A stretch of 64,000 nucleotides of DNA from Beggiatoa alba B18LD (GTDB lineage Bacteria; Pseudomonadota; Gammaproteobacteria; Beggiatoales; Beggiatoaceae): positions 1,351,284 to 1,415,283 of the forward strand of contig NZ_JH600070.1 of the NCBI RefSeq assembly GCF_000245015.1. Direction: 5' to 3'. The notes under the pieces are model-generated. The model was not told the DNA's origin and ran no database searches. It saw only the letters and a program-made list of their open reading frames with translations. This document shows positions 9,428 to 47,011 of this stretch, piece after piece. Made by a program: the position numbers and the translations under genes. Positions within the stretch are counted from its first letter, which is position 1; each line of letters starts with the position of its first letter.

Positions 9428-9448
9428 TCGTGAAACCTTCAATATAAA

Positions 9449-9480
9449 GACCTAACTGATTTTTTAAAATCGGTTAGGTC
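9449..9480. terminator. Bidirectional terminator between rpn-like gene and dctM
   Basis: GACCTAACTGATTTT and AAAATCGGTTAGGTC form a 15-bp stem with one mismatch, followed by a T-rich tract on the plus strand and flanked by A-rich sequence on the other. It separates two convergent genes. Confidence 0.85.
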
Positions 9481-9515
9481 CTTATTTTTATCACACCTCA
9501 CTGAATTTAGAAGGT

Positions 9516-16000: not shown

Positions 16001-16379
16001 ACGAATGTACAATGTCTCACTCGTTATTAGTCAACAACTCCTAGAAAATTTAGAAAAAGTAGATGCTTATCACTGCCGATTTTTAGGCAATTTACGAGTA
16101 AAAGGCAAACGTGAACCAGTACAAGTGATAGAAGTCCTAGACGCAGAGCCAGACCTCAACACCCGCCAACTGAAAATTGAACATCTCGCTATCTTTAATC
16201 AAGCGATACAAGCGTTCTTTCAAAAATCTTTTACCCCAGCAACCCAACAATTTGCGGAACTCATCGAGAAAAATCCCGCTGATAAAGTTGCTGAATTTTA
16301 TTTAGAACGCTGTCAATACTACGCCGTGCATGGCGTGCCTGATGACTGGGAAGGCGTAGAGGAATTACAAGAGAAGTAA
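13056..16379 (+). CDS. Membrane sensor kinase-receiver fused to class III adenylate cyclase
   Basis: 1107 residues. A membrane segment (~22-46) and a second one (~320-345) flank a periplasmic sensor region of ~270 residues; HAMP follows (~345-395). HisKA has His416 ([15 protein letters not shown]); the ATPase has [18 protein letters not shown] and GGAGLGL. The receiver has Asp746 ([11 protein letters not shown]). The C-terminal class III cyclase shows metal Asp858 (LFADIRSFT) and Asp902 ([12 protein letters not shown]), with Lys (DKYIG) and Asp ([12 protein letters not shown]) expected for adenine selection, so adenylate rather than guanylate cyclase is likely. The architecture resembles CyaC-type cyclases controlled by phosphotransfer. 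All key residues are present. Confidence 0.93.
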
Positions 16380-29090: not shown

Positions 29091-31475
29091 ATGATGCACG
29101 ATGTAAATTTTTTAGTCATTGATACTGAAGGTAAATCTACTTTAAATGAAATTGCGATTTTAAACGCAGACGGTAAGTTGATTTACGAAGCCTTTAACCA
29201 AGACACACAACAGGAAATACAGTTTAATAACAAACCATTAAAAACGATTTTACAAGACATCTTACAACTCAGCGTCGATAAAACCCTCGTTTTTCACTAT
29301 GCCGAACATGATATAAGACTCTTGAAAAGAAGTTTTAAAAGCGCAAGTTTAACTTTTCCACCATTAAAAACGGCTTGCACGTTTTTAATGGCTAAACAAG
29401 CCTTACCACAAGCAACATCTTATTCATTAGCCTATTTAAGCAAGTATTTAGGCTTAAAAGTAGATCACCAATTTTTTAATCAAAATGCAGCTCATTCAGC
29501 CCGTTATGATGCCGCTTTTACCCATCAACTTTATTGCCATTTGACCCAAACCGCCAATTTTTCAATAAAACCACAGATTATGAATCCATTTAGCGATAGT
29601 CGCGTCGACAACCCATTTCAACAACACTTAGACTTAAAAAGCGTTTATCAACATGAATTTGCAACTCTAAAATCTATCTTAAACGAAATCAAGCAAGACC
29701 CAAATCATCAGAGTAAAGGCGCGGTAGTCATCGGAGAAGCAGGAAGCGGAAAAACCCATTTAATGATGCGGTTAGCACAAGAAGTTTTAAAAAATAATCG
29801 CTTATTATTCATCCGTCAACCGAATAACCCTGACGCGATTTTGCATCATGTTTATAGCCGTATTTTAGAATCGTTTATCGAAAAAGTACCCGATACCCCA
29901 TTTTCCCAACTAGAATACCTCTTAGCCCACAGTTTTTCTAAAATTGCGATTGAACATTATCAGCAAAAACAAACGAAAAAAGATGAACCAATTTTAGACG
30001 CATTAACAACAGACCATTTAAATATTTACGCGAAACTCGGCGCAGAAGGCACGGAAATAAAAAGAAATAACTGGGCGAGTTTAGAACGCATGACCCGACG
30101 CTGGTGGGAAAGTCGTTACAGTTTTGCAGGCATTGCGACTGCCATTATTCAAGGCTTGATTAAATACTGCGCTTACCGTGACCCACATCGCCGTGACTTG
30201 GTTAAACGTTGGCTTGCAGGCGCAAGTTTAGAGACAGAAGAACTACAACTCGTCGGCTTGCCTGATTGGGAAGAAGAGTTGAATTTAGAAGATTTTTCTC
30301 TACAAGCCATGATTGTATTTGGACGTTTATCCTTGATTGATGAACCCTTAATTATCGTTTTTGACCAGTTAGAGGGTTTAAAAGACAATGAAACCTTGCT
30401 TACTCAGTTTGGCAATGGGTTAAAGGAAATTTTCACAGCTGTTCCAAATAGTTTGATTATCCTAAATTTATTTCCTGACCGCTGGATGACTTTTCAAACG
30501 ATTTTTGATAGCTCTATCGTTGACCGTATTTCTCAATATCGAATTACCTTAAACCGTCCTGATACAGAAATATTAAAGGAAATTCTCTATTTAAAGGCTA
30601 GTACCCAAGGCGTTGATTTAGAAAAATTGTTTAACGACAACGATTTCAGGGAAATTTTGAGTTTCTACTCAATTCGCACCGTTTTAAACCGTGCGGCTGA
30701 ATATTTCCGCTATCGCGCTGAGGGTATTAGCTTACCGCATTTAGACACCGACAAATTAGTATTTGAGGCACAAATTTGGCATGTTATTGGTGAATTAAAA
30801 AAAGAAATCCAACAATTAAAACAACAGATTGGGATTACAGAACCAACACCGCCCGCCAGTTCCCAAAATAACCCCGCAGAAACGGCGAATACCCCTGCTA
30901 CTGTAGAACAAACCTTACTAGACTACTTAGCCAGAATCGAACAACAATTAATTGCTGATTACAGTAAAAAACAAATTATCACGGAACATGATGATGTAGG
31001 AAAATTACAAACCATCATGAGAGCTTTTCAAAGCGTTAAATACGCTGATATTGAACTAGATTGTTTACATTATGGCAAAAAACGCCTACCTGATAATTTA
31101 CAAATTAAGACAAAGAAAAATACCTTTGTTGTGGGTTTTTTATACCTAGTTGGTAACTCTTTTACCGCTCGGCTAAAAAATTTTAATGAACTCGTATTAC
31201 AGCACAAAAATTACCGTTTTCGTATCTGTCGTGACAGCCGCGAACCTGCGATAAAGGGGAAAGTGGGCATGGATGAGATTGAAAAATTGATGAATGCCCA
31301 AAATGGCAATTATTACGTCATGGAACAAGATGACCGTATTCGCTATGAATTACTGTATCAATTGATTATTGATATTCAAAATAAAGATTTAGAAGTTGAT
31401 TTACAACAGGCTTTAAACTTCGTTGAAATGGAATATTTGCGCGATTTTTGGATAATGGCATTATTGCGTCATTAA
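29091..31475 (+). CDS. DEDDh exonuclease fused to P-loop ATPase, unknown function
   Basis: 794 residues from ATG 29091; no clear ribosome site. Residues ~5-155 form a DnaQ-type 3'-5' exonuclease with a complete DEDDh set: Asp11 and Glu13 (VIDTEG), Asp74 (YAEHD), His135 and Asp140 (AHSARYDAAF). Residues ~185-560 are a P-loop NTPase: Walker A GEAGSGKT (215-222), Walker B IIVFDQLEG (Asp425), and an ORC/AAA_16-like stretch with Arg480-Arg485 (DRISQYRI). A short helix (~563-580) and a Pro/Ala/Asn-rich linker lead to a C-terminal domain (~605-794) with FVVGFLYLVGNSF and RICRDSREP that I do not recognise. It is a single gene between argS and an FMN protein. Nucleic-acid surveillance or defence is an inference. 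Confidence 0.8.
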   Translation: MMHDVNFLVIDTEGKSTLNEIAILNADGKLIYEAFNQDTQQEIQFNNKPLKTILQDILQLSVDKTLVFHYAEHDIRLLKRSFKSASLTFPPLKTACTFLMAKQALPQATSYSLAYLSKYLGLKVDHQFFNQNAAHSARYDAAFTHQLYCHLTQTANFSIKPQIMNPFSDSRVDNPFQQHLDLKSVYQHEFATLKSILNEIKQDPNHQSKGAVVIGEAGSGKTHLMMRLAQEVLKNNRLLFIRQPNNPDAILHHVYSRILESFIEKVPDTPFSQLEYLLAHSFSKIAIEHYQQKQTKKDEPILDALTTDHLNIYAKLGAEGTEIKRNNWASLERMTRRWWESRYSFAGIATAIIQGLIKYCAYRDPHRRDLVKRWLAGASLETEELQLVGLPDWEEELNLEDFSLQAMIVFGRLSLIDEPLIIVFDQLEGLKDNETLLTQFGNGLKEIFTAVPNSLIILNLFPDRWMTFQTIFDSSIVDRISQYRITLNRPDTEILKEILYLKASTQGVDLEKLFNDNDFREILSFYSIRTVLNRAAEYFRYRAEGISLPHLDTDKLVFEAQIWHVIGELKKEIQQLKQQIGITEPTPPASSQNNPAETANTPATVEQTLLDYLARIEQQLIADYSKKQIITEHDDVGKLQTIMRAFQSVKYADIELDCLHYGKKRLPDNLQIKTKKNTFVVGFLYLVGNSFTARLKNFNELVLQHKNYRFRICRDSREPAIKGKVGMDEIEKLMNAQNGNYYVMEQDDRIRYELLYQLIIDIQNKDLEVDLQQALNFVEMEYLRDFWIMALLRH

Positions 31476-31532
31476 CTCATAAACCGCTATAGACTGCTTG
31501 ATACGCCTTTGATTAACTGAGATAACTTCATT

Positions 31533-32846
31533 ATGACTGTCAATCCCCGCTATTTACATGAATCGGCTACTTTTTCACAAACAGCTATCGCCGATATACA
31601 CCGTGCAGCAGAACAAGGGATTTTTCACATTCGCGGATTAGGGGCACAACGACAGCTACCCTCATTTGATGACCTCGTTTTTTTAGGCGCGTCTATGTCT
31701 CGTTACCCTTTAGAAGCCTATCGAGAACGTTGTGATACAAACATTATTTTAGGCACACGCTTTGCGCAAAAACCGATAGAGCTTGCTATTCCAATTACCT
31801 TTTCTGCTATGGGTTTTGGCGCGTTAGGGGTGAATGCGAAACAAGCGATAGGTTTAGCCGCGCGGGCGATGGGGACAAGTACGACGACGGGGGACGGGGG
31901 GATGATTCCTGAAGAGCGTCAAACTTCTCGCACGGTTGTTTATCAAATTACGCCCTCTCGCTATGGTATTAATCCTGATGATTTGCGCCAAGCCGATGCG
32001 ATTGAAATTCTTGTCGACCAAGGGTCGAAACCGGGGGGCGGTGGTATTTTACTCGGTGAAAAAAATACGGCACGGGTTGCACAATTGCGTGATTTGCCCG
32101 AAGGCATAGACCAACATAGCGCGTGCCGTCATCCTGATTGGACAGGCGCGGATGATTTAGAAATTAAAATTTTGGAATTACGCGAGATTACCGACTGGGA
32201 AAAGCCAATTTATATCAAAATTGGGGCAACACGGGTGAAATATGATGTTGCTTTAGCCGTTAAAGCGGGCGCGGATGTGATTGTATTAGATGGTATGCAA
32301 GGCGGAACGGCTGCCACACAACAGGTTTTTTTAGAAAATGTGGGTATTCCGACCTTGCCTGCTGTGCGTCAAGCGGTGGAAACCTTGCAAGCCTTGGATA
32401 TGCATCGCAAAGTACAGTTAATCGTCTCTGGAGGTATTCGGAGCGGGGCTGATGTTGCAAAAGCAATCGCGTTAGGTGCGGATGCGGTGGCGATTGGGAC
32501 AGGGGCGTTAATTGCGTTAGGTTGTAATAAAGCGCAATATCTTGAGGATTATCAAGTATTAGGGACGGTCGCAGGATATTGTCACCATTGCCATACAGGT
32601 TTATGTCCTGCGGGGATTACGACCCATCGCCCAGAATTACAAGCACGTTTAGACCCACAGACAGGGGCAAAGTATTTAGAGAATTATTTAAAAACCATGG
32701 TATTAGACATGCAAACGCTGGCTCGTGCTTGTGGTAAAACGCATGTTTTGAATTTAGAACCTGAGGATATGGTGGCGTTGACAGTTGAAGCGGCGGCAAT
32801 GGCGAAAGTGCCGTTAGCGGGGACGGATTGGATTCCGAATAGTTGA
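31533..32846 (+). CDS. FMN-binding glutamate synthase family protein (GlxD/MgsC-like)
   Basis: 437 residues. Unlike full GltB it lacks the amidotransferase domain. It closely matches the stand-alone FMN-barrel subgroup (GlxD, MgsC): FDDLVFLGASMSRYPLEAYR, MGTSTTTGDGGMIPEERQ, DQGSKPGGGG, DVIVLDGMQGGTAATQ and GGIRSGADVAKAIALGADAV. A Cys cluster CHHCHTGLCPAG could hold an Fe-S centre. MgsC belongs to N-methylglutamate synthase, used in methylamine oxidation; its partner subunits and gmaS are not in the window. The enzyme family is confident, the substrate is not. Confidence 0.85.
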   Translation: MTVNPRYLHESATFSQTAIADIHRAAEQGIFHIRGLGAQRQLPSFDDLVFLGASMSRYPLEAYRERCDTNIILGTRFAQKPIELAIPITFSAMGFGALGVNAKQAIGLAARAMGTSTTTGDGGMIPEERQTSRTVVYQITPSRYGINPDDLRQADAIEILVDQGSKPGGGGILLGEKNTARVAQLRDLPEGIDQHSACRHPDWTGADDLEIKILELREITDWEKPIYIKIGATRVKYDVALAVKAGADVIVLDGMQGGTAATQQVFLENVGIPTLPAVRQAVETLQALDMHRKVQLIVSGGIRSGADVAKAIALGADAVAIGTGALIALGCNKAQYLEDYQVLGTVAGYCHHCHTGLCPAGITTHRPELQARLDPQTGAKYLENYLKTMVLDMQTLARACGKTHVLNLEPEDMVALTVEAAAMAKVPLAGTDWIPNS

Positions 32847-32865
32847 TATTGGGCTTAATTCTTTC

Positions 32866-32896
32866 CTGAATATCCTGATTCAGATAAAAAAAGACC
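32866..32896. repeat. Fragment of CTGATTCAGA repeat and hairpin start
   Basis: ATCCTGATTCAGATAAAAAAAGACCT (in pieces from 32872) looks like a repeat right end followed by the first half of the GACCTGCTAGG hairpin seen elsewhere. The second half is missing because the mini element at 32897 begins there. Confidence 0.5.
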
Positions 32897-32973
32897 TATA
32901 GTAATCGTACCATAAAGTGATTTAAATTTAGGACTGCCAGTCATCCGCATCGTTTTATAGTACGTTTACTATA
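32897..32973. mobile_element. 77-bp mini insertion element with 20-bp inverted ends
   Basis: Left end TATAGTAATCGTACCATAAA (32897-32916) and the reverse complement of the right end, TATAGTAAACGTACTATAAA (32954-32973), match at 18 of 20 positions. Both ends carry TA. The same terminal repeat precedes the IS630-type transposase remnant at 16389, so this looks like an internal-deletion derivative (MITE) of that IS. It has no coding capacity. Confidence 0.8.
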
Positions 32974-32987
32974 ACAAGATTAAAACA

Positions 32988-33148
32988 TTGTCTGAATCAG
33001 GATTTTCAGGATTAACAGGATTTAAAACCCTCAAATCAAAAAGTTAGGTGAATCACGCTTTTTAATTCTGCTAATTCTGAAAATTCTGTGAATTCTGATT
33101 CAGACAAGCTGTTGTCTTTTTAAAAGAAACTTGCCGAACTCAGGTTAT
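32988..33148. repeat. 9-base-step palindromic unit plus MITE right end
   Basis: TTGTCTGAATCAG (32988-33000) and CTGATTCAGACAA (33095-33107) are the inverted ends of a 120-bp unit with GGATT/AATTC steps every 9 bases. It continues into TTGCCGAACTCAGGTT (33131-33146) followed by TA, the right terminus of the element complete at 45596-45852. Confidence 0.8.
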
Positions 33149-33174
33149 AAAGGTTTATTCAGCGAGATAGTCTG

Positions 33175-33558
33175 ATGAAAAGTAATAAACAGCGACGTTT
33201 AGAAATTAAGGCTAAACGATTGAAAAAAAGCATGAATCAGTTAAAGGTTACACCGACTATTATCATTCCTAAAGGGGCGGTTTTAGCAAATCCCCTGCAA
33301 TTAGTGCATAACCATACTTACAGCTTATTACCGCATTATTATGTGGATTATCCATTTACCTGTCGGGATTGTGGCGCGGAAGCGGTTTGGACGGCAGAAA
33401 GACAACGGTGGTGGTATGAAGTGGTTAAAGCGCATATTCACTCGACCGCCGTGCGTTGTGCAAGCTGTCGCCATAAACTGCGTGAGCAAAAACGCTTGCA
33501 ACAGGCACATATGCAAGCAATGGCTGAGAAGCATAAAGCTAGCACACCATCTTGCTAA
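33175..33558 (+). CDS. Zinc-ribbon domain protein
   Basis: 127 residues. A Lys/Arg-rich N-terminus (SNKQRRLEIKAKRLKKSMNQ) is followed by a treble-clef or zinc-ribbon region: FTCRDCGAEAVWTAERQRWW, then HSTAVRCASCRHKLRE, giving two CxxC pairs about 40 residues apart. This matches the probable zinc-ribbon family often found in proteobacteria. Function unknown. It starts 27 bases after the end of a MITE-like repeat and stands alone on the plus strand. Confidence 0.8.
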   Translation: MKSNKQRRLEIKAKRLKKSMNQLKVTPTIIIPKGAVLANPLQLVHNHTYSLLPHYYVDYPFTCRDCGAEAVWTAERQRWWYEVVKAHIHSTAVRCASCRHKLREQKRLQQAHMQAMAEKHKASTPSC

Positions 33559-33573
33559 AAATAAAATATCAGG

Positions 33574-34227
33574 CTATCTGTAAAGCTGATATTGTTCAAT
33601 GATTTCAAAAACAGGCGCGGGAATTAAATAGCTGGGATTACGTTGTTGTGCAATCAAAGTACGGATTTGGGTTGCGGAAATGGTTAAGGCAGGAATTTCT
33701 TCAACTAAAATTTTTCCCGCGAGTCGGTTATTCATTTCTGCAATGTTATTTACTTGATGAGTCACTAAAAAGTCGTGCATACGGTGCGACATTGGTAATA
33801 AAGTACCAGGGCGACGCACAACAACTAAGTGGGCAAGTTCAATAATTGATTCCCATGCGTGCCATGTCGGTAGCCCAATAAAGGCATCCATCCCGAGAAT
33901 TAAACAGAGTGGGTGTTGTGGGTAATCATTTCTTAAACTGCGGAGGGTGTCGATGGTGTAGGAATAGCCTTGACGCTTTAATTCGCGGTCATCGGCAATC
34001 AGTCCATTCACCCCAGCAACCGCTGCTTGTACCATGGCAAAACGCAATTCTGCATTCACAGTCGGTTTTTCTCGATGCGGAGGACTAGCCGCAGGGATTA
34101 AATGGACTTGGGCAAAAGATAAGCGTTCATAGAGTTCTAGGGCAAGGCGTAAATGTCCATGGTGAATGGGGTTAAACGTACCGCCTAACATGCCTATAGG
34201 TTTATACAACGGTGCTGGGTCTGTCAT
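33574..34227 (-). CDS. nadD: Nicotinate-nucleotide adenylyltransferase
   Basis: 217 residues. The nucleotidyltransferase start GMLGGTFNPIHHGHLRLA contains the (H/T)xGH motif; later SATQIRTLI is the ISSTxxR equivalent. It adenylates nicotinate mononucleotide in NAD synthesis. It is preceded by proA (22-base gap) on the same strand, with holA further upstream, the common holA-nadD grouping. Confidence 0.95.
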   Translation of the reverse strand: MTDPAPLYKPIGMLGGTFNPIHHGHLRLALELYERLSFAQVHLIPAASPPHREKPTVNAELRFAMVQAAVAGVNGLIADDRELKRQGYSYTIDTLRSLRNDYPQHPLCLILGMDAFIGLPTWHAWESIIELAHLVVVRRPGTLLPMSHRMHDFLVTHQVNNIAEMNNRLAGKILVEEIPALTISATQIRTLIAQQRNPSYLIPAPVFEIIEQYQLYR

Positions 34228-34248
34228 TTTTTAATTTAATTTCAGAAG

Positions 34249-35505
34249 TTATACACGCACATGTCCATCGCCAAGGACGATGTATTTTTGTGAGGTTAGC
34301 CCTTCTAAGCCGACGGGACCGCGTGCGTGAAATTTATCGGTACTGATGCCAATTTCTGCACCTAAGCCATATTCAAAGCCATCAGCAAAACGGGTAGAGG
34401 CGTTAATCATCACGGAGCTAGAGTCGACTTCACGAAGGAAACGTTGCGCTTTGCTCCAGTTTTCGGTGACGATAGCGTCTGTATGTTGTGAGCTGTATTG
34501 GCGGATATGTTCCAGCGCGCTGTCTAAATCAGGCACAATGCGGATGGAGAGAATTGGGGCAAGATATTCTGTACGCCAATCTTCTTCTGTCGCAGGTTTA
34601 ATGCCGTTGATGAGAATTTGTGTGGCAGGACAGCCGCGCAATTCTACGCCTGCGGTTTGGTACATGTCGGCTAAATGGGGCAGAACATGTGGCGCAATTG
34701 CTTGGGCAATCAATAGGGTTTCCATGGTGTTACATGTGCCATAACGGTGAGTTTTGGCGTTGTAAGCGATGGCGATGGCTTTGTCGAGATTGGCTTCGTC
34801 ATCTATGTAAACGTGGCAAATGCCATCTAGGTGTTTAATCACAGGCACGCGAGCCTCTTGGCTGATACGTTCAATTAAACTTTTACCTCCACGCGGAATG
34901 ATGACATCGACGTATTCATTCATTTTAATCAGTTCACCAACTGCCGCGCGGTCTGTGGTTTCAATTACTTGTACGGCTGTGCTGGGAAGTCCTGCACAGA
35001 CTAATCCTGTGTGGATACACTGGGCAATGGCTTGATTGGAGTGCACCGCTTCAGAGCCACCGCGTAGAATCGTGGCATTACCTGATTTGAGACATAAAGC
35101 GGCGGCATCAATGGTGACATTAGGACGGGATTCGTAAATCATGCCGACAACGCCCAAAGGCACGCGCATTTTACCAACTTGAATGCCTGTAGGTCGGTAT
35201 TGTAATTGGCTAATTTCGCCAATAGGGTCGGGGAGGGCAATGATTTGTTGAACACCTTCAATCATAGAAGCAACCCGTTGGGGGTTGATGGTTAAGCGTT
35301 CTAACAATGCGCTGTCTAAGCCTTTAGCTTGACCGTTTGCCACGTCTTGCGCGTTGGCAGCGAGTAACCGTTCTTGGTGTTTTTCTATTTGTTCCGCAAT
35401 AATGGCTAAGGCTTGATTTTTAACGGCTGTGCTTGCTTTTGCGAGCAGTACGGATGCACTTCTTGCCTGTTTTCCAATGCGTAACATTTCCGCTTGTAAG
35501 CTCAT
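34249..35505 (-). CDS. proA: Gamma-glutamyl phosphate reductase
   Basis: 418 residues of the aldehyde dehydrogenase fold, full length. The catalytic Cys lies in [32 protein letters not shown] and [16 protein letters not shown] are typical. It reduces glutamyl-5-phosphate with NADPH in proline synthesis. It lies between holA and nadD on the minus strand. Confidence 0.96.
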
Positions 35506-35601
35506 ACGATGTCCTCAAACAACCCTTTTATGACTTTAAAATAACGCCCTTCAATCAGTTAGTGGGCAAAAAAAAATAGTGGGGGGATGGTGTTCTTTTA
35601 T

Positions 35602-36618
35602 TTACAGTTTAACGCCTGAGATTTGTACACTGAGGCGTAGGAGTTCGTCCCAGACATTACCGCTTGCAGCCCCTTTTATCATGCGGTCAATGATAACGGT
35701 TTGTTGTAGAAACGTTTGCCATTTTGTCGGTGGGTAACGTTTGGCGGCTTTTTGGATAATGGCTTGACGTTGTTGCCAAATACGTAGATTACGAAAAACT
35801 TGGTCGGCGCGTTGTCCGCTTTGTAAGGCGTAAGTGACTTGGCAAAGAAGGCGAATATCTTTTGTTAATGCCCAGAGAATTAAAACAGGGTCGTATCCTT
35901 CGGCTTTTAGCCCTTGTAGTTGACGCACACAACGGGCTGTTTCGCCATTTAAAAGTGTATCGACCCAGTCAAAAATCTCAAAGCGGGCACTGTCTGCAAC
36001 TGCGTCCATCACTTGTTCTATATCAATCGTTTGTGTTGTGCCGTAAAGCAGTTTTAACTTTTCTATTTCTTGCGCACAAGCGAGTAAATGCCCTTCAGAG
36101 CGTTCGGCAATCATTTGAATTGCATCAGGTGTTGCTTTAAGTCCTTGCACATGTAAGCGATGTTGTATCCATGCGGGCAATTCTGCGAGTTCTAAGGGGA
36201 ATACGGGAACAATCACGCCTTTTTCTTCAATGGTGGTAAACCATTTGGTTTTTTGCTTTTGACTATCTAACTTGTCCGCAGTCATCAATAACAGCGTGTC
36301 AGGTGGTGGATTATTTAAATAAGCCGTTAATACTTTAGTGCCCGCATCGTTAGGTGTTTTACTGCCTAGTTGAATTTCTAATAATCGCCGTGTTGCGAAT
36401 AAAGAAAGGCTATTCGCCTCTTGCTCTACACTTTTCCAATCAAAACTGGTATCTACAACCATGATAATTCTTTCGCTAAATCCTTGCTGGCGGGCAGATT
36501 GGCGTAATAAATCGCTACATTCCATCAGTTGCAAGGGTTCTTCGCCCGTTATTAAATAAACCGGTGCGTAGGTTTGTTTTTGTAGATGGTTTAAAAATTG
36601 AGCGGGTTTAATACGCAT
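35602..36618 (-). CDS. holA: DNA polymerase III subunit delta
   Basis: 338 residues, normal size. It begins MRIKPAQFLNHLQKQTYAPVYLITGEEPL, typical of HolA, followed by the AAA-like region without a functional P-loop and a C-terminal collar domain. Delta opens the beta clamp within the clamp loader. It is first of a holA-proA-nadD series, 96 bases upstream of proA. Confidence 0.92.
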   Translation of the reverse strand: MRIKPAQFLNHLQKQTYAPVYLITGEEPLQLMECSDLLRQSARQQGFSERIIMVVDTSFDWKSVEQEANSLSLFATRRLLEIQLGSKTPNDAGTKVLTAYLNNPPPDTLLLMTADKLDSQKQKTKWFTTIEEKGVIVPVFPLELAELPAWIQHRLHVQGLKATPDAIQMIAERSEGHLLACAQEIEKLKLLYGTTQTIDIEQVMDAVADSARFEIFDWVDTLLNGETARCVRQLQGLKAEGYDPVLILWALTKDIRLLCQVTYALQSGQRADQVFRNLRIWQQRQAIIQKAAKRYPPTKWQTFLQQTVIIDRMIKGAASGNVWDELLRLSVQISGVKL

Positions 36619-36658
36619 AGCGAAGAATAATAAAGAAAATCATCATATAATAAAAAAT

Positions 36659-36940
36659 TTAGGGCGTGTCTTTTTCTTTTTTCTCCTGTTTATCTTTATC
36701 GTGATTATTTGACATGCCCATCATGGCTTGCCAAAAGGTTTTTTGTAAGGTGCTTAATGATTGTAAATGCTCAGGTAAAAATGGTTTCATCAATGTTGCA
36801 GGGTCAAAACCTTCAATCCCTGTGGACATGTTTTTGCGGATGATTTCTAACATTTCATCTTGTAAAGGTTCAAGATTAGGTAATCCAAAAAAGCTTCTCA
36901 ACTCTTGTGGCGTTGCTTCAACATCAACTTTTATTTTCAT
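36659..36940 (-). CDS. DUF6489 family small protein
   Basis: 93 residues from ATG 36940. The longer upstream frame has no family resemblance and passes through likely promoter sequence. The N-terminus MKIKVDVEATPQELRSFFGL is typical of DUF6489-type proteins, with amphipathic helices and a charged C-terminal tail (NNHDKDKQEKKEKDTP). Such proteins resemble short phasin-like or membrane-associated helices but have no assigned role. Confidence 0.75.
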   Translation of the reverse strand: MKIKVDVEATPQELRSFFGLPNLEPLQDEMLEIIRKNMSTGIEGFDPATLMKPFLPEHLQSLSTLQKTFWQAMMGMSNNHDKDKQEKKEKDTP

Positions 36941-37434
36941 AATCATGCACTCGATGAGGTAGTCCTGCCTAATGATTAGGTAGGAGTCAGCTTGAAACAG
37001 TGAGCAGTGTACCGTTTTAGGGGAAAATATGTAATGGCAGATATCTTGCCTGACAACGCCCCGCCTATGATTTACTGATATGGTGTGAAACTTGCCTTTC
37101 TCTATGACACCAGCATAGACAATACAATCGCTTTTTGTCATACACATAAATTATGTTGAAGCGATAAAAATCAAAGTATCATCATTATTTTATGCTTAAT
37201 TTATTCATTAAGTTAATGATGCGGTGCATAAACCCTTAAACTAAATAATGCATAGACCACCCATCTTTAACAAAGATGAAACATGTTATTTATAACGTGA
37301 TATTACTATTATTTTCAATACAATAAACAGATTATTTCTAATTTCTATCATCTACGAGTTATTGCTTATTGACAAATATCGTTTTATGCTTAGTAGCACA
37401 ACGCTTTTAATCAACTAACCCATTGAATATACAG
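36941..37434. other. Intergenic region, one hairpin seen
   Basis: About 490 AT-rich bases between divergent genes. TCCTGCCTAA/TTAGGTAGGA (36963-36985) forms a hairpin with one G-T pair directly upstream of the DUF6489 gene. A frame continuing upstream from that gene is not supported. Nothing else recognised. Confidence 0.45.
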
Positions 37435-40122
37435 ATGCATAAACATCCATCAACGGTATTACATGATAAATGGAATAACGGGCTAGCTTACTTATTTCAA
37501 GTTTTTTTATTGGCAACTGTTTATTTTGCAGCTGCACATGTCGGTTTTTTTCTAGGCATTTCTACACGCGGCGTGATGCCTGTTTTTTTGCCTGCAGGGG
37601 TTGCTTTATCTGCCTTGTGGTTATTTGGAATTCGTTTGTGGCCAGGCATTATTTTAGGATTATTACTGACCAAGTTTGATGGATTATGGGCACATGACCT
37701 TTCAATTTTTACAATTCTATTTTTTCAATCTATTGGGGCAGCAACACAAGCCATTTTAAGCGTTCTCTTACTCAAATATTTAAATTTTAAAGATAAATTT
37801 AATCGTGTTCGTGATGTGTTTAGTTTTGGCGTTGTTACTTTTTTTGTCGCGCCACTGATTGGCTCTACGATTTATGCCATTGCATTTTATATTCAAGAGT
37901 TTCCTTTAATTGGTACATTTTTTCAAACCACGTTGAATAATTCACAGTTTGAAGGATATCGTGAGCAAATTTTTATTACGACGGTTTTAAACGATGGGAT
38001 AGGCATGTTTGTCATGACAGCAACCTTGCTAGTTTGGCGACAACTACCTGAAAATATAAATATTTACATGAGTTTAAAACGCCGTTTTGAGGCTTTAGTC
38101 TTATTAACGACGTTAGTTAGTGTCTGTGTATTAAGTTTAGACATAGAGCAGGCACAACAACGGCAATTGTTTTTATATATGATTTTGCCGTTTGTCATTT
38201 GGGCAGCAACACGTTTTGAACAACATGGCGCGACGTTAACGGCTTCGCTGGTTGCCTCTTTATTATTAGTAGGTAGCCTTGAGTTAGAAAAAGCGCCCAG
38301 TCACCGCGATATTATTTATTTATTTTCTGAAATCAGTTTTATTGGTATTACCGCATTTACAGGGTTTATTGTCGCGGTTGCTTTTAGTGAACGCCGTTTA
38401 GCCATTGAAAATGCACAGCGTGAGCGGGATTGGGCAATTATTACTTTGCACTCCATCGGTGATGCCGTGATTACGACTGATCAATTTGCCCGTGTCACGT
38501 TTATCAATCCACAAGCGGAAGAATTATTGGGTTGGACACAGCGGCAAGTTTTAAATCGTCCAATTTCTGAAGTTTTTCAAGTCCGTGCCTTAGATGAATT
38601 AGGGGGGAAACAAGAAAATCCCGTTGAACGGTGTCTGCGTGGTATTCATACCCCGCCTCATCGTAGTTTTTTAACTAATCGCTTGAATGAAGAAATTATT
38701 ATTGAAAATTCAGTGTCGCCAATTCGTGACCAACAAGGGCGTAACATTGATGGTGTTGTTATTGTTTTTCATGATGTTTCTAAAGAGCGACATTTGCGTG
38801 AATTGTCAACGATTGCCAGTAATCAGGATGTTGTGACGGGTTTATTTAATCGACAAGAGTTTGAATATCGGCTTAGTGCCTTGGTTACACAGGCAAAAAC
38901 GGAAAGTTCCTCACATACCTTTTTATATTTAGATATTGATCAATTTTCTGTCATCGTTGAACGATATGGCGAACATGAAGCGGATAAACTGTTGCAGCAA
39001 TTGGCGGCGACATTGCAAAAACGGATTCGTAGTGGAGATATCTTTGCGCGTTTAGCACGCGATCAATTTGCCATTTTGTTAAAAAATTGTCCGTTGGAAT
39101 GGGCGGAAAACGTCGCCAATTCGTTCTTAAAAGAAGTGCGTGAACAGCGATTTATGATTGATGAAAAACCGCTCAGTATTACTGCCAGTATTGGCGCAAT
39201 TACAATTAACGCACAGACGGAGAAAAATTCTACTGTATTAATTGAACGGGCTGAATTAGCGTGTTATGCCGCAAAAGAAGAAGGGGCAGATCATGTGTAT
39301 GTGCATATAGGCAATGATCAGAAATTGCGCAATTTACGCCATCATGAAACACAATGGTCAAATCGTATTCGTCGTGCTATTACCGAAAATCAATTACAGC
39401 TTTATAGCCAACCTTTAATTGCGGTTGACCCTAGTCAAAATGGGGTTTGTTATGAAATTTTAGTTCGCTTACGTACCGATAAAAACGAGCTGTTACTGCC
39501 GTCTGCTTTTTTACCCGTTGCAGAACGCTATAGCTTTATGGGGCAAATTGACCGTTGGGTAATACAACAAGTCTTTGCACAGTTGGCAGAGCGTCCGTTA
39601 GACAAGGTTAATGATGAATATATCGGCATTAACTTGTCATTGCTGACTTTACACGACAATAGCTTTATTCATTTTATGGAAGAGCAATTAAGTCATTTAA
39701 CCGTCTCGCCCGATAAAATCAGTTTTGAATTAAATGAACAAGATGTTTTAAATACCTTAGAGAAAAGCAGTTATTTTATTCAAGCATTAGAGCAATTAGG
39801 CTTTAGCTTTACGTTGCAACAGTTTGGCAGTGGTGTTGCGTCCTTTGAATACTTAAAACAACGTTTGCCTATTCAGTATTTAAAAATTGATGCACATCTC
39901 ATTAAGCAAATGGAAAACGATATGTTATCGCGTCATATTGTAAAAGCGATTACACAAATCGCCCGCCCGATGGGGATTAAAACCATTGCAACTGCGGTGG
40001 AGTATGAGACGCTTATCCCGCTGATTAGCGCGATAGATATTGATTATATGCAAGGTTTTGCTATCGCAACGCCTGAGCCGTTTAAGCCCAGTATTTATAC
40101 ATTCGCAAGTAGCAAGGTGTAA
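37435..40122 (+). CDS. MASE1-PAS-GGDEF-EAL protein with degenerate catalytic motifs
   Basis: 895 residues from ATG 37435. The N-terminal ~310 form a MASE1-type membrane sensor with about eight segments (GVMPVFLPAGVALSALWLFG). A PAS domain (~330-450; AVITTDQFARVTFINPQAEELLG) leads to a GGDEF-like domain where the signature is ARDQF (541-545) and an EAL-like domain where it is EIL (Glu674). The paired metal Asp of the EAL domain (DDFGTG) are Gln795-Gln796 (LQQFGSG). Both enzyme activities are therefore probably lost, leaving a signalling or c-di-GMP-binding scaffold, reminiscent of CsrD in logic though not in sensor domains. Confidence 0.88.
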   Translation: MHKHPSTVLHDKWNNGLAYLFQVFLLATVYFAAAHVGFFLGISTRGVMPVFLPAGVALSALWLFGIRLWPGIILGLLLTKFDGLWAHDLSIFTILFFQSIGAATQAILSVLLLKYLNFKDKFNRVRDVFSFGVVTFFVAPLIGSTIYAIAFYIQEFPLIGTFFQTTLNNSQFEGYREQIFITTVLNDGIGMFVMTATLLVWRQLPENINIYMSLKRRFEALVLLTTLVSVCVLSLDIEQAQQRQLFLYMILPFVIWAATRFEQHGATLTASLVASLLLVGSLELEKAPSHRDIIYLFSEISFIGITAFTGFIVAVAFSERRLAIENAQRERDWAIITLHSIGDAVITTDQFARVTFINPQAEELLGWTQRQVLNRPISEVFQVRALDELGGKQENPVERCLRGIHTPPHRSFLTNRLNEEIIIENSVSPIRDQQGRNIDGVVIVFHDVSKERHLRELSTIASNQDVVTGLFNRQEFEYRLSALVTQAKTESSSHTFLYLDIDQFSVIVERYGEHEADKLLQQLAATLQKRIRSGDIFARLARDQFAILLKNCPLEWAENVANSFLKEVREQRFMIDEKPLSITASIGAITINAQTEKNSTVLIERAELACYAAKEEGADHVYVHIGNDQKLRNLRHHETQWSNRIRRAITENQLQLYSQPLIAVDPSQNGVCYEILVRLRTDKNELLLPSAFLPVAERYSFMGQIDRWVIQQVFAQLAERPLDKVNDEYIGINLSLLTLHDNSFIHFMEEQLSHLTVSPDKISFELNEQDVLNTLEKSSYFIQALEQLGFSFTLQQFGSGVASFEYLKQRLPIQYLKIDAHLIKQMENDMLSRHIVKAITQIARPMGIKTIATAVEYETLIPLISAIDIDYMQGFAIATPEPFKPSIYTFASSKV

Positions 40123-40147
40123 GTTTTAGGGGTTAATTGATTCAATG

Positions 40148-40180
40148 AGGTCTGCCAGCCCTTTAAGGACTAGCAGACCT
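40148..40180. terminator. Intrinsic terminator between sensor gene and dnaN
   Basis: AGGTCTGCCAGCCCTT and AAGGACTAGCAGACCT form an imperfect stem followed by TTTTT. It resembles the CCTGCTAGG hairpin family. It can serve the sensor gene (plus) and possibly dnaN (minus). Confidence 0.75.
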
Positions 40181-40234
40181 TTTTGCATGTTTACAGAAAA
40201 TGACGATCAATCAAGATTAAGTGCTGAACCCGCT

Positions 40235-41368
40235 TTATAAACGCATGGGCATAATGACGTACTTCGTTTGATCAATTTCTTTCGGACGAATGAGACAACT
40301 CGCATTTGTATCACCAAAGCAGAATTCAACTTCTTTTGTCGTAATCGCATTTAATACGTCTAATAAATAGGTAACGTTAAAGCCAATTTCAAAGGCTTCT
40401 CCCGTATATTCAACTTCTAACTCTTCCTCAGCCTCTTCTTGCTCAGGATTTCGAGCGGTAATAATCAAGCGTTGTGGATTAAAACTTAAGCGTACCCCTT
40501 TATATTTTTCATTAGAAAGAATAGAGGCACGAGATAATGCTTGTTTTAACAGGTCGCAATGCGCCAACATGAATTTATCAGGGTATGCAGGGATGACACC
40601 ACGATAATCAGGAAAGCGTCCATCGATTAATTTGCTACTTAATACAAGACGGTCCGCAAAGGCGAATTTAATGTAGTTTTCGTAAACAGAGACGGTTATT
40701 TGAGTGTCTGCATTGTCACCTAACATCCGTGCTAGTTCATTGACGGCTTTACGAGGGATAATGACTTGTGTCGGTTCTACGCCTTCTAAGTTGAAACTTT
40801 CCTTTGCCATCGCTAGGCGATGCCCATCGGTCGCAACAACGGCTAATTCTCCAGGCGTTAAATCAAACAATAAACCGTTTAAATAATAACGGACATCCTG
40901 TTGTGCCATAGAAAATTGTGTTTGTGCTAATAAATCGCGGAGGGTGCGCTGAGCAATTTCAAAGGTAAAACGCAATGTTGTTTCAGATTGTTTATCAGCA
41001 GAAAGGGTCGGAAATTCGTCTGCATTTAACGTTGATAGGGTAAAACGACTGCGTCCTGATTTAATCACCGCCCGATTATCTGGCTCTGCTTGAATTTCAA
41101 TCAGCGAGTTATCCCCTAAAGAGCGACAAATATCTAAGAATTTACGGGCAGGTATGGTTGTACGCCCTTCGACTACATCACTTTCTGCTTCTAATGGAAT
41201 ACAGCAAGAAATCTCTATTTCTGCATCTGTTGCCGTTAAATGCAAGGTTTGTCCTTTTACCTCAACAAGGGTATTACCTAAAATTGGCAAGGTTTGACGA
41301 GGCTCAACTGCCCCATTGACCATTTTTAAAGGATTTATTAGGTCTTTACGAATTATTGCTAATTTCAT
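40235..41368 (-). CDS. dnaN: DNA polymerase III beta sliding clamp
   Basis: 377 residues of three similar domains. N-terminus MKLAIIRKDLINPLKMVNGA and the C-terminal DQTKYVIMPMRL are diagnostic. The clamp tethers polymerase III to DNA. It follows dnaA after 136 bases; recF and gyrB, often next, are not present here, and a terminator follows. Confidence 0.97.
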   Translation of the reverse strand: MKLAIIRKDLINPLKMVNGAVEPRQTLPILGNTLVEVKGQTLHLTATDAEIEISCCIPLEAESDVVEGRTTIPARKFLDICRSLGDNSLIEIQAEPDNRAVIKSGRSRFTLSTLNADEFPTLSADKQSETTLRFTFEIAQRTLRDLLAQTQFSMAQQDVRYYLNGLLFDLTPGELAVVATDGHRLAMAKESFNLEGVEPTQVIIPRKAVNELARMLGDNADTQITVSVYENYIKFAFADRLVLSSKLIDGRFPDYRGVIPAYPDKFMLAHCDLLKQALSRASILSNEKYKGVRLSFNPQRLIITARNPEQEEAEEELEVEYTGEAFEIGFNVTYLLDVLNAITTKEVEFCFGDTNASCLIRPKEIDQTKYVIMPMRL

Positions 41369-41504
41369 AAATTCTTCCTGATATTGAGGGCTAAGTAATT
41401 AATACTAATGTAAATGAGTCAAGCTCATTATAAAAGATTCGGGTGGAATTCTAAATAGGGGGTTGTTGCGATGTGATACACACCGCAGACAACTGGATTC
41501 TGGA

Positions 41505-42872
41505 TTAATGTGTCAGTCGTTCTAATAAATGGCTGTAATCACGTTGCACTTGTGAATCAGCGGTTTTTAGTTTAGCAACCGTGCGATAGCTATATAGGAC
41601 GGTGCTGTGGTCACGCCCACCAAAAGCATCACCGATTTCGGGCAAACTGTGTTGTGTGAGTTCTTTTGCTAAACTCATGGCAATTTGACGCGGACGAGCA
41701 ATTTGTCGACTGCGTTGCCGAGAACGCATGGTCGAAACTGGTACACGGAAATAATCCGCGACGATTTTTTGAATAGCTGCTAAGGTTATTAAGTGTGATT
41801 GTGTTTGATTAATCAGGTCTTTTAAGGTTTCTTGGGCACTCGTTAGCGTAATAGGGGAATTTGTAAAACGTGCGGTCGCAATAATACGGTGCAAAGCCCC
41901 TTCTAGCTCTCTAACATTAGATTGAATATGTTGTGCCATGAAATAAGCCACTTCTTCAGGTAAGCGCGTTTGTGCAATTTGCGCTTTACTATGCAGTATC
42001 GCAACCCGTGTTTCTAAGTCAGGTTGTTCTACAGCAACCGCTAATCCACAGCTAAAACGTGATTTTAATCTTTCTTCAATGCCTTGTAAGTTTTGCGGGG
42101 GGCGGTCACTGGTAAAAATGATTTGTTTTTGATTATCAAATAAATAATTAAAGGTATGAAATAGCTCTTCTTGGGATTGTGCTTTATTCATAAAAAACTG
42201 TACATCATCAATGAGTAAAGTATCCACTGATCGATAATGACGTTTAAATTCATTCATTTTCTTTTCATGCAAGGCTTTTACCATTTCACTGACAAAACGT
42301 TCAGAGGGAACGTAAAGCACTCGTGATTGGGGTTGTTTTTGTAAAATTTGATTGCCAACCGCATGAATCAGATGTGTTTTACCTAAGCCTACACCACCAT
42401 AAATAAACAAAGGGTTATAAATCCCTTGTTCTTGTGCCACTTGTTTTGCGGCAGATAACGCAATACGGTTTGAATTTCCCGAGACGAAATGACTAAACAG
42501 TAATTTTGCATTGAGATGGGTTGTAAAAGTCTCTTGAGCGACTGGGATTGCTTGACTGGTAACAGCGTGGTTTAGCAATGAACTTTTTGATACAGCTGTG
42601 GCTGGTGAACTATTCACGGAGACACGGCTATTCCCAACTTGAAGCGTTAACTGTGGTGTACCACTAGGGCGCAAACGCATCAGCAGTGCATTGATTTGTT
42701 CAGCATAATTTTGCTTAACATAATCCATGACAAACCGATTCGGAGCAAGGAGTCGTAGAGTTTGAGTATCTTCGAGGGCTTGCAACGGGCGTATCCAAAC
42801 ATTAAAGTCTTGCCCTGACAGCTCTCGCTCTAAGGTTTTTAGACACTCATTCCACAGTTTTGTGGATACCAA
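41505..42872 (-). CDS. dnaA: Chromosomal replication initiator DnaA
   Basis: 455 residues. Domain I at the N-terminus (LWNECLKTLERELSGQDFNVW), linker, AAA+ domain with Walker A (GGVGLGKTHLIHAVGNQI, ~158-175) and Walker B (TLLIDDVQFF), arginine-finger region, and the domain IV DNA-binding motif GGRDHSTVLYSYRTV. It unwinds the origin. The gene is divergent from rpmH across 303 bases. Confidence 0.98.
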   Translation of the reverse strand: MVSTKLWNECLKTLERELSGQDFNVWIRPLQALEDTQTLRLLAPNRFVMDYVKQNYAEQINALLMRLRPSGTPQLTLQVGNSRVSVNSSPATAVSKSSLLNHAVTSQAIPVAQETFTTHLNAKLLFSHFVSGNSNRIALSAAKQVAQEQGIYNPLFIYGGVGLGKTHLIHAVGNQILQKQPQSRVLYVPSERFVSEMVKALHEKKMNEFKRHYRSVDTLLIDDVQFFMNKAQSQEELFHTFNYLFDNQKQIIFTSDRPPQNLQGIEERLKSRFSCGLAVAVEQPDLETRVAILHSKAQIAQTRLPEEVAYFMAQHIQSNVRELEGALHRIIATARFTNSPITLTSAQETLKDLINQTQSHLITLAAIQKIVADYFRVPVSTMRSRQRSRQIARPRQIAMSLAKELTQHSLPEIGDAFGGRDHSTVLYSYRTVAKLKTADSQVQRDYSHLLERLTH

Positions 42873-43175
42873 TTTAAACCTCCAATGAAAGATAATTCAG
42901 GAAACAAGCAAAATGGGGTTAATGAGTTTATACTGCTTACCTTGTATATGCTAGCTTTCAAATTTTTCCTAAATCGCCACTTAATTTAATGATTTTTAAA
43001 AAGAAATATTTTTTTAGATCATGAAAAGTTGTTTAAGTTTTATTTTTAATATCAAATTGATAAAGAAAGAAATGCAAGCATAAGAAATTTTTTTCAGGTC
43101 TATACTCTTGACAACATTTTTTCAGAAAAAATACAATAGTCTGTTTACCTACCTGCATATTAGAGGAGAAATCCC
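42873..43175. other. dnaA-rpmH intergenic region, possible origin neighbourhood
   Basis: A very AT-rich 303 bases between divergent dnaA and rpmH, where oriC lies in some bacteria. I see no cluster of TTATCCACA-type DnaA boxes here; one related sequence (TGTGGATAC) falls in the first codons of dnaA. The origin is therefore not located with confidence. Confidence 0.35.
43108..43137 (+). promoter_or_regulatory. Sigma-70 promoter of rpmH operon
   Basis: TTGACA (43108-43113) and TACAAT (43132-43137) are separated by 18 bases. The pair lies 38 bases before the rpmH start, with AGAGGAGA as ribosome site between. Confidence 0.75.
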
Positions 43176-43310
43176 ATGAAAAGAACCTTCCAACCCAGCG
43201 TATTAGTGCGTAAACGTCGCCATGGCTTCCGTGCACGGATGCAAACTCGTGGCGGTCGTTTAGTATTAAAATCCCGTCGTGAAAAAGGTCGGCATCGTTT
43301 AAGTGCTTAA
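43176..43310 (+). CDS. rpmH: Ribosomal protein L34
   Basis: 44 residues ([20 protein letters not shown] start, then [20 protein letters not shown], ending RLSA), exactly the L34 consensus. It is part of the large ribosomal subunit. AGAGGAGA lies just upstream. Its stop codon shares a base with the rnpA start. It heads the rpmH-rnpA-yidD-yidC operon. Confidence 0.98.
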
Positions 43311-43678
43311 TGGACGATTCAACGCGCTATGTGTTTAGCCGTCAGCAACGTTTGTTAAAAGCCGCTGACTTTAAGAAAGTTTTTGAGAAATCTTATAAAT
43401 CGGGTGATCGCTATTTTACAGTGCTTGCCCGCGCTAATGGTCTTTCTCAGGCTCGTTTAGGGTTAGCGATTGCCAAAAAGCAGATGAAATTGGCGGTTAT
43501 GCGTAATCGGGTGAAACGGTTAGCGCGTGAAAGTTTCCGCCTTCATCAACATACTTTGGCAGGATTAGATTGTGTTGTATTAGCCCGCCAAAATTTAGCC
43601 GACATAGAAAATGCTACGCTGTTATGTTCATTAATAAGGCATTGGCGGTTTTTAGCCGCGCAATGCAAAAAGTCCTGA
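43310..43678 (+). CDS. rnpA: Ribonuclease P protein component
   Basis: 122 residues. It contains the RnpA signature [20 protein letters not shown]-type region (ending KRLARESFR). With the catalytic RNA it removes tRNA 5' leaders. The start overlaps the rpmH stop by one base and its end overlaps yidD. Confidence 0.96.
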
Positions 43679-43899
43679 TTCTTCTCATTCAAGGCTATCG
43701 TCTTTTCATTAGCCCTTATCTGGGGCAACATTGTCGATTCCACCCAAGCTGTTCTGAATATGCCCAAATAGCCATCCGTGAACACGGGGTGCTGTCTGGT
43801 TTGTGGCTGGCTATTAGACGCTTGCTCCGTTGTAACCCTTGGCATGAGGGTGGTTATGACCCTGTGCCTGAGCGAAGGAAACCTGATCAACATGGATAA
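43663..43899 (+). CDS. yidD: Membrane protein insertion efficiency factor YidD
   Basis: 78 residues from ATG 43663; a start at 43624 would also be in frame. Family signature: [48 protein letters not shown], with three conserved Cys. It assists membrane insertion with YidC. It overlaps rnpA by 16 bases and yidC by 8. Confidence 0.93.
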
Positions 43900-45577
43900 T
43901 ATCAGACTCATCCTGATTTTTACCCTGCTATTCATTCTGTTACTGATTTATCAACAATGGCAAATTGATTACGGACAAAAACCCGTTAATCCTGCACCTG
44001 TTGCAACAACGCCTTTACCCGCTGATGGGAATCCTGTCACCAGTCAAGCAAATGGCTTGCCTACGGTGATGGATAAAACGCATCAAGCAACTGCGTTGCC
44101 AGATGTGCCTTCTAGCCAGACTCTTTTGCCACATCAAGCAATAGTTTCTGTGGAAACAGATGTTTTAAAAGTAGCGATTAATACAGTTGGTGGTGACATT
44201 CGTCAAATGGCATTGCCAAAGTATCCCGTCAGTTTAGAAGAACCTGATAGACCTTTTCAGTTATTAAATGACAGCTTGCCGAATGTTTTTGTCGCACAAT
44301 CAGGGTTATTACCTGCCGAATATGCCCCCACGCATCAAGCGATTTATCAAGTCAATGCGACTCAATATCGTTTAGCCGATGGGGAAAAAACGTTAGAAGT
44401 TGTCTTAACTTGGCGTAATGAACAAGGGATTCAAGTCGATAAAATCTACACCTTTACACGGGGTAGTTATGTCGTCAATGTTAAACACCGTGTCCACAAT
44501 AACGGCGAAACGCCTTGGCAAGTTCGGCAATATGCGCAATTTCAACGCACCCAAGTTGCAGAGCAAGGACAATCAAGTTTTATTCATACCTATATGGGCG
44601 GTGCAATTGCAAGTCCCAGCAGTTTGTACGAAAAACTGTCTTTTTCTGACATCAGCGATGACAAATTAAATCAAGAGAAACGCCAAGGCTGGGCAAATGG
44701 TTGGGCTGCCATGATTCAGCATTATTTTGTCAGTGCGTGGGTTCCGAATAAAGAAGAAGTCTTTAATTACTATACCAATGTCATTAAACAAGGTCAGCGT
44801 TATGTCTTAGGGTTTTATGGGCAACTTGAGACTATCGAGCCAAAAGCAACGCATGAGTTTAATTTGCAATTCTACGCAGGGCCTAAGATTCAAGATGACC
44901 TTGCCGCATTAGCTTCAGGATTAGAATTAACCGTTGATTACGGTTGGTTCTGGTTTATTTCTCAACCTTTATTCTGGTTACTGTCTTTATTACATGGCAT
45001 GTTTGGTAATTGGGGTTGGGCGATTATTGTTTTAACGCTCATGATTAAATTGGCATTTTTCCATCTTTCTGCAACCAGCTATAAATCGATGGCGAATATG
45101 CGTCGGGTGCAACCGCGTTTAATGTCCATTAAAGAACGTTATGGCGATGACCGCGCAAAGATGAATCAAGCCTTGATGGATTTGTACAAAAAGGAAAAAA
45201 TTAACCCATTAGGCGGTTGTTTGCCCATTCTGGTACAAATTCCTGTCTTTATCGCGCTTTACTGGGTACTGTTAGAAAGTGTCGAATTACGTCAAGCCAG
45301 TTTTATTTTATGGCTGGATGACTTATCCCGCCCCGACCCTTTCTTTGTATTGCCGTTAATTATGGGTGCGACCATGTTATTGCAACATAAATTAAACCCC
45401 GCACCGTTAGACCCTGTGCAACAAAAAGTAATGATGGCATTACCGCTCGTCTTTACCGTCTTTTTTGCCTTCTTCCCGTCTGGTTTAGTGTTATATTGGG
45501 TTGTGAATAACAGCTTATCTATTGCACAACAATGGGTTATCACTAAAAAAGTGGTTGGTGAAGTCAAACTCGACTGA
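43892..45577 (+). CDS. yidC: Membrane protein insertase YidC/Oxa1
   Basis: 561 residues from ATG 43892, giving the normal N-terminal membrane anchor ([21 protein letters not shown]). A large periplasmic beta-rich domain follows, then the five-segment Oxa1-like core with [35 protein letters not shown] and [19 protein letters not shown]. It inserts membrane proteins alone or with SecYEG. mnmE, the usual next gene, is absent; a MITE follows. Confidence 0.97.
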
Positions 45578-45595
45578 TTAAGCTGATACTATCCA

Positions 45596-45852
45596 TAACC
45601 TGAGTTCGGCGAGATTTATAAAATAAAACAGATACCTGCTAGGTTTTTAAAACCTAGCAGGTCTTTTTTTGTCTGAATCAGAATTCACAGAATTTTCAGA
45701 ATTAGCAGAATTAAAAACATAATTTTTTATTCTTTTAATTTTCTTGTCTTTTTAATTCTGAAAATTCTGATTCAGACAATCTTTTAATCCTGAAAATCCT
45801 GATTCAGACAAACTGTTGTCTTTTTTAAAAGAAACTCGCCGAACTCAGGTTA
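45596..45852. mobile_element. Complete 257-bp MITE-like element with perfect 18-bp ends
   Basis: TAACCTGAGTTCGGCGAG (45596-45613) and CTCGCCGAACTCAGGTTA (45835-45852) are exact inverted repeats with outermost TA, consistent with an IS630/Tc1-type TA target. Inside are the CCTGCTAGG hairpin (45634-45662) with a T7 run, a palindromic unit bounded by TTGTCTGAATCAG (45669) and CTGATTCAGACAA (45779), and a second right-arm copy ending at 45811. There is no open frame. The hairpin may terminate yidC transcription. Confidence 0.85.
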
Positions 45853-45870
45853 TCCATAAAAAAAATAAAT

Positions 45871-45894
45871 AAAGGGTGATTTTTTTCACCCTTT
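45871..45894 (+). terminator. Intrinsic terminator before mtdB-like gene
   Basis: AAAGGGTGA and TCACCCTTT form a perfect stem with a T-rich loop, followed by more T. It insulates the H4MPT genes from upstream transcription. Confidence 0.8.
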
Positions 45895-46111
45895 TTTTTA
45901 TGAATAATTTTTCTAAGCATGACCTACAATTAGCGCAAAACATGCCGATTTACCCCTGATTTATCCGTTTTCGCTTTTTAACTAACTGTACTAGAATATC
46001 AACGTGCCACGGTTATTCCCAAAATTCCTGCGGGCATCATCCCAATAAATAGAAAAGCTACCTATGACATAAGCTTTCATGTAATTCACACCAAACGGAG
46101 AGATATTTAAT

Positions 46112-47008: not shown

Positions 47009-47011
47009 ACG

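Follow-up and report, generated by a model that had tools for sequence, protein, structure and literature searches.

The 64,000-nucleotide stretch of Beggiatoa alba B18LD analysed here (the window) carries on its plus strand, at 37435..40122 including the stop codon, an open reading frame for a protein of 895 amino acid residues. Pfam searches identified four domains in this protein, all above their gathering thresholds and in the order proposed by the first-pass annotation: the membrane domain MASE1 (residues 25-321, 37507..38397; PF05231, 81.5 bits), a PAS domain (residues 338-448, 38446..38778; PF00989, 44.8 bits), a degenerate GGDEF domain (residues 463-619, 38821..39291; PF00990, 118.7 bits) and a degenerate EAL domain (residues 643-880, 39361..40074; PF00563, 174.8 bits). 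No output domain was seen in the Pfam search of the protein. The AlphaFold2 model (mean pLDDT 84.3, pTM 0.52), in which MASE1 is helical, shows confidently folded individual domains, whereas their relative placement is not confident. In the GGDEF and EAL domains, 35 of the 40 ten-residue blocks have a pLDDT of 88 or more.

The immediate neighbours of this gene lie on the opposite strand. On one side are a small open reading frame and what we take to be a holA-like gene; the other side adjoins a region (40235-45577) presumably holding dnaN-like, dnaA-like, rnpA-like and yidC-like genes. No Rfam match was found within 30000-48000. Phage origin was considered and set aside: partial matches to the protein occur in 75 phage records, none with 80% coverage and with identity under 60% in the best places; viral contigs yielded no confirmed close relative. 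Elsewhere in the window, a SocA/Panacea antitoxin-like gene (162-1153, PF13274) overlaps a 140-residue open reading frame without a Pfam match, a possible toxin-antitoxin pair, and 13056-16379 encodes a fusion of histidine kinase, receiver and class III nucleotide cyclase of 1107 residues.

The first-pass annotation considered both enzyme domains inactive on the basis of three motifs, two of which were confirmed as losses. ARDQF replaces GGDEF at residues 541-545 (39055..39069), and QQ replaces the metal pair DD of the EAL domain at residues 795-796 (39817..39822). The third, EIL at the EAL position (residues 674-676, 39454..39462), is harmless, because the key catalytic glutamate (E674) is present and the motif varies among intact orthologs: EIL in four and ETL in one of five intact reference orthologs, and ELL in ortholog L072. 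The solved relative RbdA also has ELL. A residue table of the active sites, read beside the PleD and RocR residues listed in PMC7911125, revealed additional losses. The GTP site has changed within the motif (G541A, G542R, E544Q) and beyond it (K505S, N508V, R618A), leaving D500, D517, D543 and K614, and the catalytic base of the EAL domain is replaced by threonine (E853T, 39991..39993; ATAVE versus AEWVE).

By the same list (PMC7911125), equivalents of PleD D327, D344 and E370 are retained (D500, D517, D543), those of N335, G368, G369 and E371 are V508, A541, R542 and Q544, and the spacing matches PleD exactly. Of the RocR positions, the substrate residues Q161 and R179 are retained as Q659 and R678, and the metal ligands E175, N233 and E265 as E674, N733 and E765, whereas D295, D296 and E352 correspond to Q795, Q796 and T853; the spacing is exact except that the Q161-E175, E175-N233 and D296-E352 gaps are each one residue longer (PMC7911125). 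EAL domains lacking the EGVE base are predicted in PMC12900916 to be inactive. With the GTP site lost, and in the EAL domain both the metal pair and the base, inactivity of both enzyme domains is a well supported prediction from these residues. The protein also carries an RxxD motif (RSGD, residues 532-535, 39028..39039) at the inhibitory-site position, and its R and D are kept in all four degenerate sequences described below. They are, however, also present in 37 of 42 wider relatives, so this motif is not diagnostic of a receptor site.

Orthologs were collected with a profile of the MASE1-PAS half, run against 42 genomes from the order (E <= 1e-70). Ten genomes gave one match each, and therefore intact and degenerate copies do not occur together in any genome at this threshold. 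One more ortholog, L077, was added from a separate search listing the best 80 of 574 confirmed relatives; the five named full-length orthologs among those best 80 come from metagenome-assembled genomes of Thiotrichaceae (two), Thiomargarita (two) and Beggiatoa (one). The full-length alignment, including MASE1 and PAS, places the B. alba protein among the MASE1-PAS-GGDEF-EAL orthologs of this family. Outside the genus there are nine orthologs; GGDEF is kept in seven, six of which also keep DD (L072 has DN); AEWVE is kept in six of the seven, the other being L070, which is not covered there and was used only up to a frame change near query residue 804. The degenerate members among these orthologs are those of the two species of the genus and of two further genera (L073 and L074). 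The sister species, 74% identical over the GGDEF-EAL half, reads TRDQF, DR and APYVE and thus has the same kind of losses, so ARDQF and QQ are not a sequencing slip. In place of GGDEF, DD and AEWVE, L073 has SGQSF, DN and GAWVE, and L074 has NHQHV, DE and ATHVE.

We measured conservation against 42 relatives (best 80 of 574, of which 63 passed the filter and 42, with L077, were aligned), from which the B. alba protein and L080 were excluded; L073 was scored as L080, which is on the same contig. GGDEF is present in 41 of these relatives and GGDEL in one; the key EAL sites read E, DD and E in 39, two have K, and one has DN with K. Fifty-eight EAL columns are conserved in at least 90% of relatives, and we divided them, after the site table had been seen, into three catalytic, ten pocket and 45 other columns; this order of work counts against a receptor reading. 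The same ten pocket residues survive in all four degenerate sequences, and two or three of the three catalytic residues are gone: B. alba keeps 0/3 catalytic, 10/10 pocket and 35/45 other columns, the sister species 1/3, 10/10 and 35/45, L073 1/3, 10/10 and 27/45, and L074 1/3, 10/10 and 23/45. In B. alba the difference between catalytic and pocket columns is significant (p 0.0035), as is that between the GTP site (4/10 kept) and conserved GGDEF columns elsewhere (26/31; p 0.013), and at 95% conservation or more the p values are 0.018 and 0.038, respectively. GTP-site residues are eroded similarly or further in the other degenerate sequences (4 of 10 kept in the sister species, 2 in L073 and 1 in L074). 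Pocket columns are kept significantly better than other conserved EAL columns in L073 (p 0.021) and L074 (p 0.004), and not in B. alba or its sister (p 0.18 each), which also counts against a receptor. In the PAS region (residues 338-455), 18 of 19 columns conserved in at least 95% of the 42 relatives are retained.

No neighbour is common to most orthologs across nine loci, L077 and the window. The sister species retains 33574-37147, including the small open reading frame beside the gene (36659-37147); a homolog of this frame, with 66% over 83 residues, is found some 6.4 kb away from the ortholog in L072. Two small open reading frames are common to the close pair L067 and L070, and both L070 and L071 show matches of 28-35% to a large one at the sister locus. 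The yidC match of the sister species lies roughly 1 Mb from its ortholog, and the 18 kb of that locus examined contain no dnaN match, which points to a rearrangement near the replication genes.

Two independent conversions from enzyme to receptor within one family, each with the EAL base and second metal aspartate lost, the GTP site eroded and the pocket whole, are a tentative reading that we regard as doubtful. The marker tree sets two degenerate groups apart and the gene tree joins them, and long branches may mislead. The four degenerate sequences are joined weakly in the N-half gene tree (58/14) and firmly in the C-half tree, both as a whole (99/98) and without 21 columns of the active-site region (97/97). 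Under the masked C-half alignment, holding the B. alba pair and the intact rows together without L073 and L074 gave p-AU 0.066, and holding L073, L074 and the intact rows together without the B. alba pair gave p-AU 0.0097. One row, og_L047 (end branch 7.77, probably a wrong frame), was in the N- and C-half trees and was dropped from the masked tree. In the mnmG+argS+yidC tree the L073 and L074 hosts fall outside the rest (92/92) and Beggiatoa groups with G025 (73/69). Union of the degenerate hosts is rejected by mnmG alone (p 0.018) and not by the three markers together (p 0.22). For G008 the search at the chosen threshold gave no mnmG match, and the mnmG and argS of G027, both split in two, were excluded from the three-marker tree.

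Codon models comparing B. alba with its sister gave dN/dS of 0.036 for MASE1, 0.014 for PAS, 0.017 for GGDEF and 0.063 for EAL, rough ratios because dS is saturated (2.35-5.37); omega=1 fits far worse in every segment. In three control pairs, two with intact EAL sites and one (383274) with DN, omega was 0.025-0.059 before the EAL (PAS included in two) and 0.004-0.035 for the EAL half. EAL dN between the two Beggiatoa species (0.185) exceeds that of all three control pairs (0.026-0.077), a further point against a receptor. Low omega in all domains means that constraint persists in the degenerate ones, with the EAL somewhat relaxed; the GGDEF and EAL domains are under purifying selection, a rough estimate given the saturation of dS.

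In the single genome of the sister species, the gene is split at the start of the GGDEF domain by an insert that we take, from a transposase type recognised by eye, to be an insertion sequence. A query of 791 bases from it gave 42 matches in that genome, four of them at 100% including the copy in the gene, and in B. alba the only trace is a 59-base piece at 88%; the break therefore looks recent. The repeat (L066, about 9231-10080) is thus present in high copy in the sister genome, having expanded recently in only one of these two closely related species. The insertion demonstrates that loss of the gene can occur in the sister species, and it counts against a receptor.

Degenerate sites are not unique to this protein in the B. 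alba genome (4.27 Mb in three contigs), where 9 of 29 GGDEF domains lack GG[DE]EF, 4 of 15 EAL domains miss at least one of eight chosen residues, and three proteins, the 895-residue one included, fail both motifs. One of the others (L173:1082-3268, C2 near 1680620-1681837) has 729 residues, GDNVF and EH for DD; its best solved relative is Pseudomonas aeruginosa FimX (E 2e-72), making it the probable FimX of B. alba. The third protein degenerate in both domains (L174:1210-3684, C2 near 2946915-2948153) has 825 residues, apparent receiver domains, SESVF, and an EAL domain with DVL, QD and VPFIE.

With catalytic residues lost and the binding pocket and shape kept, the B. alba protein probably senses c-di-GMP rather than changing its level. 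We consider it a pseudoenzyme derived from a membrane-bound bifunctional cyclase/phosphodiesterase, which same-family orthologs with both active-site motifs suggest as the ancestor, and predict with a probability of about 55% that it is now a membrane c-di-GMP receptor or scaffold. The first-pass annotation had named a c-di-GMP sensor or RNA turnover as possible roles; the sensor fits best, given the ten pocket residues in all four degenerate sequences and the FimX-like glutamine. Three further observations count against a receptor: the weakest part of the EAL model is block 801-810, just after QQ (pLDDT 65); only three of six metal ligands are kept by the published list (PMC7911125); and the four degenerate proteins have Q, R, N or E as their second metal residue, so that a FimX-like glutamine is not common to them.

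As a receptor, the EAL domain would bind c-di-GMP without hydrolysis, as FimX and LapD do, and the degenerate GGDEF domain would be its structural or regulatory partner. Entry of c-di-GMP into the pocket may alter the GGDEF-EAL arrangement, by analogy with LapD (PMC3032553), and MASE1-PAS may add a second input, comparable to MASE1 in DgcE (PMC6510439). Since no output domain is seen, a change in shape or dimerisation would act on a putative partner protein. Conversion of enzymes to receptors has often been inferred from single dead proteins; intact and degenerate orthologs in close genera make the order of losses and the residual constraint readable and testable. In sulfur-oxidising Beggiatoa, such a receptor, if real, could speculatively link the surroundings to gliding or matrix formation.

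A scaffold independent of c-di-GMP, which would pair with a further GGDEF or EAL protein so as to block or steer it, is unlikely. The missing output domain, the folding of the domains in the model and the many possible partners (the genome has 29 GGDEF and 15 EAL domains, the protein's own included) are in line with it, and CsrD, which is reported to act without c-di-GMP turnover, is a precedent. So is DgcE, whose degenerate EAL domain restrains the oligomers of its own protein; the degenerate EAL is reported to inhibit there and MASE1 to activate (PMC6510439). However, Q659, E674, R678, K817 and Q873 are kept in all four degenerate lines, which is unexpected for a pure scaffold, and the NCBIfam CsrD model scores far under its cut-off (144.8 versus 663 bits) on a protein with a MASE1-PAS N-terminus, a result that also leaves the suggested role in RNA turnover without support; CsrD works through RNase E on the turnover of Csr small RNAs, and the presence of CsrA in the genome alone says nothing.

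We think it rather improbable that the gene is on its way out, with activity lost, selection weakening and a pseudogene soon to follow. The insertion in the sole other genome of the genus examined and the raised EAL dN would agree with decay, but the 895-residue frame is open, dN/dS stays at 0.014-0.063 in all four domains despite degenerate sites in both species, the pocket is complete, and the sister break looks recent, the queried 791 bases being 100% identical to three other copies. Retention of one of the two enzyme activities, to which the remaining E674, N733, E765, D500 and D543 and the weak activity reported for FimX despite lost residues (PMC3527489) might point, is highly improbable with the base glutamate and both metal-pair aspartates absent and with E544Q, N508V and an arginine at the second glycine of the GTP site.

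The nearest folds to the predicted pseudoenzyme are, in order, RbdA, DosP, MorA, PA0575 and LapD. RbdA of P. aeruginosa (PA0861, 5xgb) is the best match over PAS-GGDEF-EAL (sequence E 8.5e-105, fold E 3.8e-42), the part that the comparison covers; it differs in carrying GGDEF, DD and the base glutamate, and is described as acting mainly as a phosphodiesterase (PMC10874727). DgcE (YegE) of Escherichia coli likewise combines MASE1, PAS, GGDEF and a degenerate EAL (MASE1-PAS3-GGDEF-degenerate EAL), but has three PAS domains rather than one and an intact GGDEF motif, and the corresponding NCBIfam model (PRK09776) scores 430.2 bits against a cut-off of 1135. YfgF shares MASE1 and an inactive GGDEF domain, and differs in that its EAL domain is reported to be active (PMC3718329).

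The EAL domain alone matches those of RbdA and FimX at TM 0.84-0.90 on target, the FimX EAL with c-di-GMP (3hv8) at 0.90. FimX is also degenerate in both domains, with glutamine at the second metal position: aligned through the paralog L173, the metal pair is SQ in P. aeruginosa FimX (4j40) and EQ in X. citri FimX (7lkq). By the same alignment FimX shows further pocket losses, and it has H or R and Q where the B. alba protein keeps N733 and E765. FimX has the order REC-PAS-GGDEF-EAL, whereas this protein has MASE1 and no Pfam receiver match, and a separate FimX-like protein exists in the genome. In our mapping Q796 falls on FimX Gln596, which is reported to bond to the ribose of pGpG (PMC3527489).

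LapD is also a membrane protein with degenerate GGDEF-EAL domains, the GGDEF domain capping the EAL pocket, and differs in having KVL in place of EIL according to PMC3032553. Its NCBIfam model scores 163.4 bits against a cut-off of 1020, and a LapD route is unlikely because the B. alba genome has no match to the LapG protease family (Peptidase_C93), which matches one of 14 control genomes. Degenerate dual proteins such as LapD, FimX and Xylella PD1671 (PMC4374697) are already on record. Titles and abstract openings in the literature searched, which leaves out most subscription journals, describe no protein that combines MASE1 with degenerate forms of both domains. With both folds kept and the catalytic residues of both lost, the B. 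alba protein belongs to this known kind, of which MASE1-PAS-degenerate GGDEF-degenerate EAL is a variant.
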